Shown here one piece after another: positions 20,952 through 24,955 of a DNA stretch of 37,994 bases; positions within the stretch are counted from its first letter, which is position 1, and each line of letters begins with the position of its first letter. This DNA is from Labilithrix sp. (GTDB taxonomy: Bacteria; Myxococcota_A; Polyangia; Polyangiales; Polyangiaceae), in assembly GCA_019637105.1 (NCBI GenBank), contig JAHBWF010000070.1, forward strand, positions 1 to 37,994, given 5' to 3'. Below the pieces are notes generated by a model. That model was given only the letters and a program-made list of their open reading frames with translations, was not told where the DNA came from and did not search any database. The position numbers and the translations under genes are program-made.

Positions 20952-21953
20952 TCACTGCTGCTGCGGGGCCTTGACGCGCGCCGCCGCGTTCGCCGGGCCC
21001 TGCTCGATCCGTGTCGCCAGCGCCTCGCGCTGCTCCGGCGTGAGGACCGACGTGACGATCGCCAGCTCGTTGATCCGGTGGTCCTTGCCGGCGGCCGGCC
21101 GGACCAGCTCCTTCGGCGGCGTCACGAAGGCCGCGGCGTCGAAGGCGTCGGCCTTGAAGCTCTCGAGCTTCGCCTGCATCGCGGCGCGCATCGCCTCGTG
21201 GTTCGCCTTCATCGCCTCGCGCTGCTCCGCGGTCGGCTTCTCCGGGCGCTGGGCCTCGAGCTTGGCCTTGATGGCGGCGCGCTGCTCCTCGGTCAGGTCG
21301 AGGCCCGCGAGCAGGTGCATCGCCGCGCCGCCGTGCGCCCCCGGACCGGCGCGGAAGTGGGCCGAACCCTCGCCGCGCGCCCCCTGCTCGCCGCGCGCCC
21401 CCTGCTCGCCGCGCTCTCCGCGCGGCGCGTGCTTGCCGCGCGCCTTGGCCGGCCCCTCGGCGAAGCGCTTGGTGACGCTGTCGACGAGCGCGACGCGCTG
21501 CTCGGCGGTGAGCGTGTCGTGGAGCGTCGCGAGCGCCTTCGCCGAAGCGGCGACGCGAGCCTCCTTCGCGCTCTCGTCGCGCGCCGGCGGCGTGAGGCCG
21601 GCGACGGAGTTGCTCCGGACCGCCGCCGCGAGCTTCGCCGCGTGCGCCGAGTCGAAGCTCGGCTTCTCGTGCGTCTGCGACTTCACGAGGCCCTCGATGG
21701 TGGTCCGCTGCTCGGCGGTCAGGTCGATCGGAGCGCGGAGCGCGGCGTGGACGAGGAGGTCGGGGCCGGGCGCGCCGCGTCCCGGTCCGCCGTGGGCGCG
21801 GTGGCCCTCGGGCGCGTCGGTCTGCTCGGCGGCGATGTTGCCGCGGACGTCGTCGACCGACTCCGCGCCGCCCGACGTACCAGCCTCGGCGCTGCAACCG
21901 GCGAGCGCGGCGACGAGGGCAAACAGCGGAAGAGTCATCGAACGAAACGTCAT
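20952..21953 (-). CDS. Spy/CpxP-like periplasmic lipoprotein
   Basis: A 333-residue exported protein. ATG at 21953 with GAGGAG 8 bases upstream; lipoprotein signal ending ALAGC (Cys 20). It contains repeated 'LTxEQR' motifs (about 78, 146, 222 and 310), the mark of the Spy/CpxP/LTXXQ family of periplasmic chaperones and metal or stress sensors. It is much longer than Spy (about 160 residues) and seems to carry two or more LTXXQ modules. A collagen-like run of G-x-x triplets (about 175-192) lies in the middle. It is divergent from a histidine kinase/NtrC-type regulator pair and preceded by a sigma-54 promoter, so it is probably the main output of that system, perhaps also a feedback inhibitor as CpxP is for CpxA (inference). 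Confidence 0.85.
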   Translation of the reverse strand: MTFRSMTLPLFALVAALAGCSAEAGTSGGAESVDDVRGNIAAEQTDAPEGHRAHGGPGRGAPGPDLLVHAALRAPIDLTAEQRTTIEGLVKSQTHEKPSFDSAHAAKLAAAVRSNSVAGLTPPARDESAKEARVAASAKALATLHDTLTAEQRVALVDSVTKRFAEGPAKARGKHAPRGERGEQGARGEQGARGEGSAHFRAGPGAHGGAAMHLLAGLDLTEEQRAAIKAKLEAQRPEKPTAEQREAMKANHEAMRAAMQAKLESFKADAFDAAAFVTPPKELVRPAAGKDHRINELAIVTSVLTPEQREALATRIEQGPANAAARVKAPQQQ

Positions 21954-22021
21954 GGGGGATCTCCTCGGGGCGCTGTCGTGCAGCGCGGTGGCTCCGTCCG
22001 TCGGAGCGTGACGAACCCTCA

Positions 22022-22037
22022 CGCAAGCCGCTTGCCA
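22022..22037 (-). promoter_or_regulatory. Sigma-54 promoter for the Spy/CpxP-like gene
   Basis: Read on the minus strand, the sequence is TGGCAAG-CGGC-TTGCG, against the sigma-54 consensus TGGCACG-N4-TTGCW. The -24 GG and -12 GC doublets are correctly spaced; the mismatches are A for C in the first block and the last base. The transcription start should lie near 22012, about 60 bases before the ATG at 21953. Confidence 0.75.
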
Positions 22038-22112
22038 ACCGGCTGGATCGCCTCCGGAGGCGGCAATTGCGGGGTTTTCGACGGCTGGGCTCGACGAGCC
22101 GCGGGGGAGCGC

Positions 22113-22128
22113 GGAGTGCGGAGTGCGG
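22113..22128. promoter_or_regulatory. Half-sites of the regulator's probable binding motif
   Basis: GGAGTGCG at 22113-22120 is followed, sharing one base, by GGAGTGCGG at 22120-22128 and then by TTTCCGCC, a decayed version of the palindrome at 22143-22163. It lies about 100-116 bases upstream of the predicted sigma-54 start, a usual place for an activator's enhancer site. Confidence 0.5.
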
Positions 22129-22142
22129 TTTCCGCCGGCGAT

Positions 22143-22163
22143 GGAGTGCGGATTCCGCACTCC
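22143..22163. promoter_or_regulatory. Perfect palindrome: probable enhancer (UAS) of the NtrC-type regulator
   Basis: GGAGTGCGGA and TCCGCACTCC flank a single central T, a perfect 10-bp inverted repeat. It lies about 131-151 bases upstream of the predicted sigma-54 start and 88 bases before the histidine kinase ATG. This spacing suits an NtrC-family activator site that could also autoregulate the kinase operon. Confidence 0.65.
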
Positions 22164-22250
22164 ACCGCGCGCCGGACCCTCCGGTTGTCGTGACCTTCGG
22201 GCGCGCGTAGGGTGGCATGATCCGTGGGTCCGAGGTCCGACGGTGCGCTC

Positions 22251-23579
22251 ATGAGGAGTCGAGGTCGTTCGTGGTCGGTGTGGGCGCGCGGTGGGAGCAT
22301 CGCGACGGCGGCCCTCGCGGTCGTCTCGCTCGGCGTCACCGTGATCGCCTCGCAGCGCGCGCTGGCGGACGCCTCCGAGGTCGTCATCCGCGGCGAGGGC
22401 GATCTGCTCCTGTCGGCGCTCGTCGTCGAGCTCGCCGAGGAGGCGAGCCCGGCGTCGCCGGCCGCGCTCGAGCGCGCGCTCGACGCGCACGCCGGCGCCG
22501 GCCTCCGCTACGTCGCGATCGTCGATCGCGAGGGGCACGCGACGGCGGAGGCCGGCCGCGCGGAGATGGCCGGAGCGACGCTGAAGCCGGGCGAGTCGCG
22601 CATCGAGGGCCGCCGCGCGCGCGTCGCCGGGCTGCTCTCGCCGCCGCGTCGCGCCGGGCGCGCGCTCGGCCCGGGCGCGCGCTCCGGCGGACCGTTCGGC
22701 CCGCGACCGGAGACGTTCGACGCCCTCGGGCCGCTCCACGCGCACCGGCCGCCGGGCGCGGCGATCCTCGTCGTGGAGCTCGAGCCGCCCGTGATCGAGA
22801 CGCTGCGCCGCGATCTCACGCGCATCGCCGTCGTCGCCGCCGTCGCCGGCGGCGTCCTGCTCGCGTTCGCGATCGCGTGGTCGCGGGCCGCGCGTCGCCT
22901 GACGGCGCTCGAGGAGCGCGCCGCGCGCGAGCAGCGCCTCGTCGCGCTCGGGAGCATGTCGTCGGTGATGGCGCACGAGCTGCGCAACCCGCTCGCGTCG
23001 CTCAAGGGTCACGCGCAGCTCCTCGTCGAGGACCTCGAGGGCGCGGCCGACGCGAAGCGGCGCGCGAAGGCGGAGCGCGTCGTCTCCGAGGCCGAGCGCC
23101 TCGAGGCGCTCACGACGACGCTGCTCGACTTCGTGCGCGACGGTCCCATCGAGCGCGCGCGCCTGACCCCGCGCGAGCTCGTCGACCGCGCGCTCGAGGA
23201 CCTCGCGAAGGATCGCGTGGAGGTCGATCTCCAGGCGGCGCCGAGCGCCGTCGAGGTCGATCCGGGGCGCCTGTCGCGCGCCATCCACAACCTCGTCGAC
23301 AACGCGCTGCAAGCGTCGGACGAGCCCGTCGAGCTCAGGATCGCGTCGGAGGGCGACGACGTGGTGCTCACGGTGCGCGATCGCGGGGAGGGGATCGCCG
23401 CCGGCGCCGAGGCCGAGATCTTCGAGCCGTTCGTGACGACGAGGGTGCGGGGGACGGGGCTCGGCCTCGCCGTCGCGCGGCGCGTCGTGGAGCAGCACGG
23501 CGGTACGCTGACCGGCGCGAACCATCCGGACGGCGGCGCGCTCTTCACGCTGCGGCTCCGCGGAGGACGACGATCATGA
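22251..23579 (+). CDS. Membrane sensor histidine kinase
   Basis: A 442-residue NtrB-like sensor kinase. Transmembrane helices at about 15-34 and 191-210 flank a periplasmic domain of about 155 residues rich in Ala, Gly, Pro and Arg. The phosphoacceptor His is about 242 in [19 protein letters not shown] box [12 protein letters not shown]1 RDRGEGI and G2 GTGLGLAVA complete the ATPase domain. The ATG at 22251 is preferred; a GTG at 22224 is also in frame. Its TGA overlaps the regulator's ATG (ATGA), so the pair is co-translated. It is divergent from the Spy/CpxP-like gene and probably senses envelope stress, metal or misfolded protein (inference). Confidence 0.92.
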
Positions 23580-24955
23580 GAGAGAGACGTTCGGGCAGGG
23601 TCCTCGTCGCCGACGACGAAGAAGGCGTGCGCTCGTTCCTCGCCGAGTCGCTCGAGCGGGACGACCACGAGGTCGTCGCGGTCGCCGACGGCGCGGCCGC
23701 GCTCGCCGCCGCGCGCGAGGAGCCGTTCGACGTCGTGATCACCGACCTCAAGATGCCGAAGCTCGACGGGATGAGCGTCGTCCGGACGCTCCGCACGGAG
23801 CAGCCCGACGTGGAGCTCATCGTCCTCACGGCGTTCGGCGACGTCTCGACCGCCGTCGAGGCGATGAAGCTCGGCGTGTTCGACTACCTCCAGAAGCCGG
23901 TGTCGAGCCCGGCGGCCGTGCGCGAGCTCGTGAAGGGAGCCCTCGGCCGGCGGGACCTCCTCGCCGTCCCCGCCGACGCGCCGGCCGTTCGATCGACGCT
24001 CACGTTCGGCGCCCCGAGCATGGCCCCCGTCGTCGCGGCGCTCGCGAAGGTCGCGAAGAGCGGCGCGACCGTGCTCTTGCAGGGCGAGAGCGGCACGGGG
24101 AAGGAGGTCGCCGCGCGCGCGCTCCACGACACGAGCCCGCGCGCGGACAAGCCCTTCGTCGCGATCAACTGCGCCGTCCTGACCGAGCACCTCCTCGAGA
24201 GCGAGCTGTTCGGCCACGAGAAGGGCGCCTTCACCGGCGCGCACGCGCAGCGACGCGGGCGGATCGAGCTCGCCGACGGAGGGACGTTCTTCCTCGACGA
24301 GGTCGGCGAGCTCAAGGCCTCGCTCCAGGCGAAGCTCCTCCGCGTGCTCGAGGAGCGGAGCTTCGAGCGCCTCGGCGGATCGCAGCTCGTCGAGGTCGAC
24401 GTCCGGTGGGTCGCCGCCACTCACCGCGACCTCCGCGCGATGGTCCGCGAGGGCACGTTCCGCGAGGACCTCTACCACCGCCTCGCGGTGTTCCCCATCC
24501 GCCTGCCGCCGCTGCGCGAGCGCCGCGAGGACATCGTCCCGCTCGCGCGGGCGCTGGTCGCCGACCTGGCGCACGCGGCCGGGCGCGCGCCGCCGCGCCT
24601 CGACGCCGCGCTCGAGGCGCGCCTCCGCGAGGAGACGTGGCCGGGGAACGTGCGCGAGCTGCGCAACGCGCTCGAGCGCGCGATGATCCTCGCCGACGGC
24701 GACGTGCTGGGGAGCGAGCACCTGTGGCTCGAGCCGCCGTCGACGGACGTGGCGCCGCCCGGCGAGGTGCGGGCGGGCGCGATCGACGCCGCCGGTCCGG
24801 CGGCCGTCAAGGGCGGCTCGCTCGCCGACCTCGAGCGCCAGACGATCGAGAGCACGCTCCGCGAGGTCGACGGCAACCGCCGCGCCGCCGCGGCGAAGCT
24901 CGGCATCGGCCTCCGGACGCTCTACGACAAGCTGAAGAAGTACGGCATCCGCTGA
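23576..24955 (+). CDS. NtrC-family response regulator, sigma-54 activator
   Basis: A 459-residue regulator and partner of the preceding kinase. Receiver domain at 1-120: acidic pocket DDEE (13-16), phosphoacceptor Asp 57 ([12 protein letters not shown]), Thr 85, Lys 107. AAA+ domain at about 140-380: Walker A GESGTGKE at 170-177, sigma-54 contact GAFTGA at 217-222, Walker B FLDEVGE at 239-245. A Fis-type helix-turn-helix ends the protein ([20 protein letters not shown]). It should oligomerise on phosphorylation and open a sigma-54 promoter; a matching promoter and enhancer palindrome lie in the divergent intergenic region at 22022-22163. Confidence 0.95.

Follow-up and report, generated by a model that had tools for sequence, protein, structure and literature searches.

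Known systems and the Labilithrix locus

Spy and CpxP, envelope proteins of the LTXXQ family, are under Bae/Cpx control. In the ZraPSR (HydHG) system of Escherichia coli and Salmonella, a Spy-family periplasmic gene is divergent from a kinase–regulator operon, and the NtrC-type activator ZraR controls the chaperone ZraP in a sigma-54-dependent manner (PMC7657598); the title of a paper cited in the same source ascribes to ZraP the damping of its own kinase. In vitro, the zraP/zraSR spacer was the single strong target of ZraR, to which chromatin immunoprecipitation with sequencing in another study adds 25 targets (PMC8249747), and this spacer is also among the targets of RpoN (PMC8743547). Myxobacteria are rich in sigma-54 activators, fifty-three of which have been reported in Myxococcus xanthus (PMC3162934); in this species the CorSR system combines a kinase and a sigma-54-type regulator with a nine-gene copper operon and putative sigma-54 promoters (PMC3707914). 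Here, we describe a 37,994-nucleotide stretch of DNA from Labilithrix sp. (positions 1 to 37,994 of contig JAHBWF010000070.1, assembly GCA_019637105.1; hereafter the window), in which a kinase–regulator gene pair is divergent from a gene for an LTXXQ lipoprotein and which probably encodes a sigma-54 circuit for envelope stress resembling ZraPSR, for which the sequence points to one target. We assign this reading a probability of about 0.86.

The trio consists of a lipoprotein gene at 20952..21953 (−), encoding 333 residues with the lipobox LAGC and two LTXXQ (Spy/CpxP-type) modules, a membrane histidine kinase gene at 22251..23579 (+), with HisKA and HATPase_c domains, and an NtrC-type response regulator gene at 23576..24955 (+), with a receiver, a sigma-54 AAA+ domain containing GAFTGA and a Fis-type helix–turn–helix domain. 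The kinase has an N-terminal and a second membrane helix, as judged by eye and from a model, with a periplasmic sensor region in between. The control DNA is the spacer between the divergent genes, and an rpoN gene is present in the assembly. Gene calls from a simple finder were wrong at several loci, among them that of the window, and were supplemented by six-frame searches.

The lipoprotein exceeds the threshold of the LTXXQ family (PF07813, 45 bits against a cut-off of 24.3) in two stretches. The family profile of the N-terminal module, encoded at 21483..21746 (−), matches CpxP (E 8e-6) and that of the C-terminal module, at 21012..21326 (−), matches Spy (E 1e-4); the linker joining them is rich in Gly, Arg and Glu. 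The predicted model of the protein aligns with CpxP, Spy and CnrX, and Foldseek alone with this model gave no match at E < 0.001. The Labilithrix protein belongs to the same LTXXQ family as Spy, CpxP and CnrX/NccX, from which it differs in combining two modules in one lipoprotein.

In E. coli, zraP lies divergent from zraSR, and by eye the spacer contains inverted repeats GAGTAAAAATGACTC and -24/-12-like sequences. These repeats are presumably the ZraR sites. The Labilithrix locus has the same arrangement, with a Spy-family envelope gene opposite the pair, an NtrC-type regulator, putative regulator sites formed by inverted repeats in the spacer and a sigma-54 promoter, predicted from sequence and conservation, before the envelope gene. 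On the other hand, the target is a two-module lipoprotein of 333 residues rather than the 141-residue ZraP, the operator, TGCRGAWTCYGCA, differs from GAGTAAAAATGACTC, and the window contains no convincing sigma-54 promoter facing the kinase gene. The initial annotation of this DNA had regarded sigma-54 control of a Spy/CpxP gene as a different design; this claim to novelty fails because E. coli ZraPSR is already built in this way, as PMC7657598 and PMC8249747 describe. Among the matches listed in the open-licence literature, no report of a sigma-54-controlled Spy-type gene in myxobacteria was found. The system is best described as a lipoprotein-type variant that would work like ZraPSR. With it, envelope control of the ZraPSR type would reach the myxobacteria, its target there being a lipoprotein of two fused modules, and these bacteria, with their many sigma-54 activators, would gain a regulator–operator pair defined by sequence.

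Two further systems invite comparison. CorSR likewise pairs a myxobacterial kinase with a sigma-54-type regulator and serves an envelope/copper gene cluster, but its target is a nine-gene copper operon, and a Spy-type gene is not mentioned in the available part of the source (PMC3707914). In E. coli AtoSC, the TGCAGA within TGCAGAAATTTGCA upstream of atoD (PMC3118216) resembles the half-site TGCRGA of the Labilithrix regulator, whereas the target of AtoSC is a catabolic operon and the spacing of the half-sites is not the same.

Promoter and operators in the spacer

A candidate sigma-54 (-24/-12) promoter of the lipoprotein gene, TGGCAAGCGGCTTGCG, lies at 22022..22037 (−). It reads TGGCAAG-CGGC-TTGCG, matching TGGCACG-N4-TTGC at 10 of 11 core positions, with G at the last W and GG-N10-GC kept. 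Upstream of it, the main operator GGAGTGCGGATTCCGCACTCC at 22143..22163 is an exact palindrome with the core TGCGGATTCCGCA at 22147-22159, and a second, weaker and promoter-proximal operator, TGCGGTTTCCGCC, at 22124..22136, has two mismatches to the consensus and stands 23 bp from the main core. None of 100 shuffles of the window yields such a palindrome even at three mismatches, and when the spacer was shuffled 3000 times, a perfect palindrome with 10-bp arms appeared 11 times. In the 8,454,228-base assembly, which is 91.5% complete, both the exact core TGCRGAWTCYGCA and the 21-base palindrome within three mismatches occur a single time. The near-consensus promoter, the transcription start near 22012 and the perfect palindrome had all been proposed by the initial annotation, and the sequence agrees with each: the promoter is kept in all nine trio loci described below, the predicted start suits the position of the -12 element and the palindrome is exact. 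What it took for decayed half-sites at 22113-22128 belongs to the second operator.

Conservation was assessed in 184 genomes of the order, 54 of which contained matches to the lipoprotein. The divergent trio was found in nine genomes of three families (f1, f5 and f12), namely the window and G117, G122, G125, G120, G074 and G078 of the same family, G052 (f5) and G176 (f12). When the nine spacers were aligned, TGGCA-N7-TGC and two operators were present in all of them, the weaker second site at an equivalent place and the pair 20-23 bp apart; one site has 0-1 mismatches to the operator consensus and the other 0-3. The promoter core scores 10 or 11 of 11 in six loci and 9 in L039 and L105. It is this conservation in relatives, rather than the single match, that makes the -24/-12 promoter convincing. 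The initial annotation had staked its proposal on conservation of the palindrome and promoter in relatives that keep the trio, and both are kept in 9/9, with weak promoters in L036 and L039.

Lipoprotein genes that do not adjoin the pair mostly lack the operator. The 300 bases upstream of the lipoprotein gene were scanned in the 45 loci with a clear start among 56 with a phmmer match; 11 were dropped, and five fetched loci (L072 and L081-L084) had been left out for having no phmmer lipoprotein match. L105 (G176) stands outside this comparison, having been fetched after the palindrome search, though the lipoprotein search had listed its lipoprotein. With one mismatch or none allowed, the operator core precedes 8/8 lipoprotein genes beside the pair and 1/37 others (p = 4e-8), the one exception being L064; the corresponding counts are 7/8 and 5/37 for a promoter scoring 9/11 or better, and 7/8 and 1/37 for the two elements together. 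Here, a gene was classed as not beside the pair when the fetched stretch, in some cases a short contig, contained no homologue of the regulator.

An independent link between palindrome and regulator came from a search for the regulator at E <= 1e-120 in 318 genomes of the class, which gave 85 matches in 77 genomes. Ten of these (the nine trios and G012) were set aside, leaving 75 loci (L113-L187) picked by regulator homology regardless of the palindrome. The exact core TGCRGAWTCYGCA occurs in 15 of them, more than any other of the 360 permutations of the half-site (a set that includes the core itself and averages 0.2 loci), and this first rank in loci chosen by their regulator ties the palindrome to the regulator. 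At one mismatch the core is found in 33/75 loci, again at rank 1. Of the 16 exact core sites, 11 have a -24/-12-like site (at least 9/11) at a distance of 30-160 bp, compared with 5.4% for random positions of the same loci. Searched by itself, the 21-base palindrome (at most two mismatches) is present in 14/318 genomes of the class and the reversed control in one; eight of the 14 are trio loci, in G012 it is directly behind a kinase–regulator pair, and in G010 it is near the start of the contig, ahead of the same TPR gene as in G012. Core pairs 22 bp apart (at most three mismatches) occur in 12/377 genomes of the phylum, with one in the control, and in four of these genomes (G003, G052, G109 and G244) a regulator homologue is no more than 4 kb away; the window's own spacing of 23 bp falls outside this 22-bp pattern. 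Together, these observations support the prediction that the regulator binds the two operators.

On the kinase side, tentative elements were noted by eye at 22185..22219 (+), consisting of TTGTCG-N17-TAGGGT, a sigma-70 candidate that a pattern scan did not confirm, and TGGCATG without a proper -12 element. In L039 (7076-7247), sigma-54-like sites face both the lipoprotein gene (9/11) and the kinase gene (10/11).

Proposed circuit and competing explanations

In the circuit that we propose, the kinase would use an extracytoplasmic domain of the ZraS type to sense a periplasmic signal, possibly damage to the envelope or a metal ion, and, as its domains suggest, phosphorylate the NtrC-type regulator. 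From comparative genomics, the regulator is predicted to bind the two tandem operators 23 bp apart. Looping and ATP hydrolysis are established for activators of the NtrC type, and by these means the regulator would open the sigma-54 polymerase at 22022-22037, switching on the two-module Spy/CpxP-type lipoprotein. The latter is probably an envelope chaperone or metal buffer and, by analogy with ZraP, may damp its own kinase. A self-contained sigma-54 circuit made up of kinase, activator, enhancer, promoter and lipoprotein had been the central suggestion of the initial annotation, and it gains support from the conservation in 9/9 trio loci and from the 75 independent loci.

A number of observations weigh against this reading. 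The promoter match by itself is not significant, with five matches in the window at two or fewer mismatches against 3.1 expected, and in L036 the promoter is weak (8/11). The exact core is missing from 60/75 regulator loci and a core within one mismatch from 42/75, and at one mismatch a permutation with one swapped position reaches 32 loci against 33. Judged by coordinates, an LTXXQ gene is absent from the neighbourhood of 65/85 regulator homologues; it is also absent beside the two nearest non-trio regulators, L113 and L114, the former of which in addition has no core within one mismatch. In four genomes with the palindrome (G046, G108, G146 and G204; loci L108-L111), the fetched stretch contains no homologue of either the kinase or the regulator. 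Finally, in G116 (L064, 4227-5480) a lipoprotein gene has a good -24/-12 site and several cores resembling the operator, but no adjoining pair; this gene is possibly controlled in trans.

The insignificance of the single promoter match and the four genomes with an unaccompanied palindrome would also suit a quite different explanation, in which a different protein, such as a repressor, binds the palindrome, the -24/-12 match is due to chance and the lipoprotein gene uses another promoter. We consider this improbable, given the first rank of the exact core in loci picked by regulator homology only, the clustering of promoter-like sites near the core and the retention of the promoter in every trio locus; moreover, a scan of 21900-22300 for sigma-70 patterns, limited to the classical consensus, found none. 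That the inverted repeat acts as an RNA hairpin or terminator is suggested by its perfection, but it lies upstream of the promoter, a terminator scan of 21900-22300 was empty and the repeat is one of two like sites at nearly fixed spacing, which makes this explanation hardly credible.

The assumption that the locus is a true ZraPSR orthologue, responding to the same signal, zinc, deserves somewhat more weight and is nevertheless unlikely. The divergent layout is the same, and a profile alignment of the kinase family with ZraS of E. coli spans the full length, sensor region included (434 columns, E 3.8e-46), whereas only the kinase core aligns with AtoS (226 columns); ZraS is also the best NCBIfam match of the kinase. 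However, the score of this match is 160.9 bits, well below the cut-off of 479, and the regulator reaches 340.8 bits with the ZraR model, for which the cut-off is 760. The best score of the regulator is with the AtoC model (423 bits, cut-off 714), and it remains below the cut-off for every one of the best 25 of the 125 NCBIfam models matched. Its identity is 40.8% to ZraR and 41.7% to AtoC, and in the regulator tree, in which the E. coli branches are long and their joins weak, it does not join ZraR. The lipoprotein profile has the motif alone in common with ZraP (probability 0.3%), and the repeats of the E. coli spacer, read by eye and presumably ZraR sites, differ from those of Labilithrix. 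A ZraPSR-like circuit, distinct in its operator and its lipoprotein, remains the preferred reading.

Operator spacing, neighbouring genes and other features

In the trio loci, the promoter and the distal operator are separated by distances of 63-66, 73-75, 107-109 and 118. With a period of 11 these are in phase (R 0.81 and a nominal p of 0.001; p 0.006 at 10.5), and ten loci of the other set give the same period of 11 (R 0.80), with phases of 8.7 and 8.2 for the two sets. The test was devised after the distances were known, ten periods were tried and relatedness was ignored; other periods at nominal p < 0.05 were 9 in the trio and 7 and 13 in the other set, none being shared by both with the same phase. 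As an exploratory result, the pattern fits an enhancer held on one face of the helix.

In the regulator tree, eight trio regulators form one clade (100/99) and that of L061 lies elsewhere. An LTXXQ gene neighbours 20/85 regulator homologues, the nine trios included. The other 11 (G188, G193, G209, G220, G260, G262, G263, G264, G265, G267 and G269), with the gene within about 3.5 kb, fall into two branches next to E. coli sequences, with a weak root. In G080, the regulator is followed after about 1 kb by a Metal_resist (PF13801) gene on the opposite strand. L127 and L147, labelled 'otherSpyNear' in the tree, were flagged by a custom Spy profile and not by Pfam searches, and were not counted as having Spy-type neighbours.

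The operator also lies beside genes for EF-hand proteins (L122 and L129), YHYH proteins (L171 and L176), a dioxygenase-domain lipoprotein (L114) and a Bax1-I-domain protein (L131, in which the best promoter-like site faces the kinase), as well as beside a PqqD gene (L141) and a TPR gene (L107). We infer that the genes adjoining the operator outside the trio are targets. The chances appear evenly balanced that kinase, regulator and operator form a class-wide myxobacterial cassette, rewired by exchange of neighbours (LTXXQ lipoproteins, EF-hand, YHYH and BI-1-like proteins, and PqqD/TPR operons) while the operator–promoter distance shifts by whole helical turns. With their graded promoter spacings and exchanged neighbours, these loci form a natural series in which the rewiring of enhancer circuits could be tested.

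The two loci in which this operator precedes YHYH-domain proteins (L171, 6540-7514; L176, 5196-6494) represent two families, f1 and f3. L107 (3245-10439) contains a homologous kinase–regulator pair, the operator and the TPR gene, followed by genes that, by eye, are PqqD-, ATP-grasp- and decarboxylase-like, and in L106 (342-4329), at the start of a contig, the operator is followed by the same gene series.

Elsewhere in the window, a 1573-codon open frame at 3293-8014 (−) ends in 357 C-terminal residues resembling a second sigma-54 activator, with GAFTGA and a C-terminal stretch similar to a helix–turn–helix. Tandem repeats occur at 29927-30082 (47-bp unit, 3.3 copies, 90% matches) and at 34477-35033 (91-bp unit, about six copies), and near the end of the contig, at 37163-37920, repeat units of 72-75 bp have CTTCAACGAAGCTGCCGGCCGTCGCCGACAGAGAG in common.

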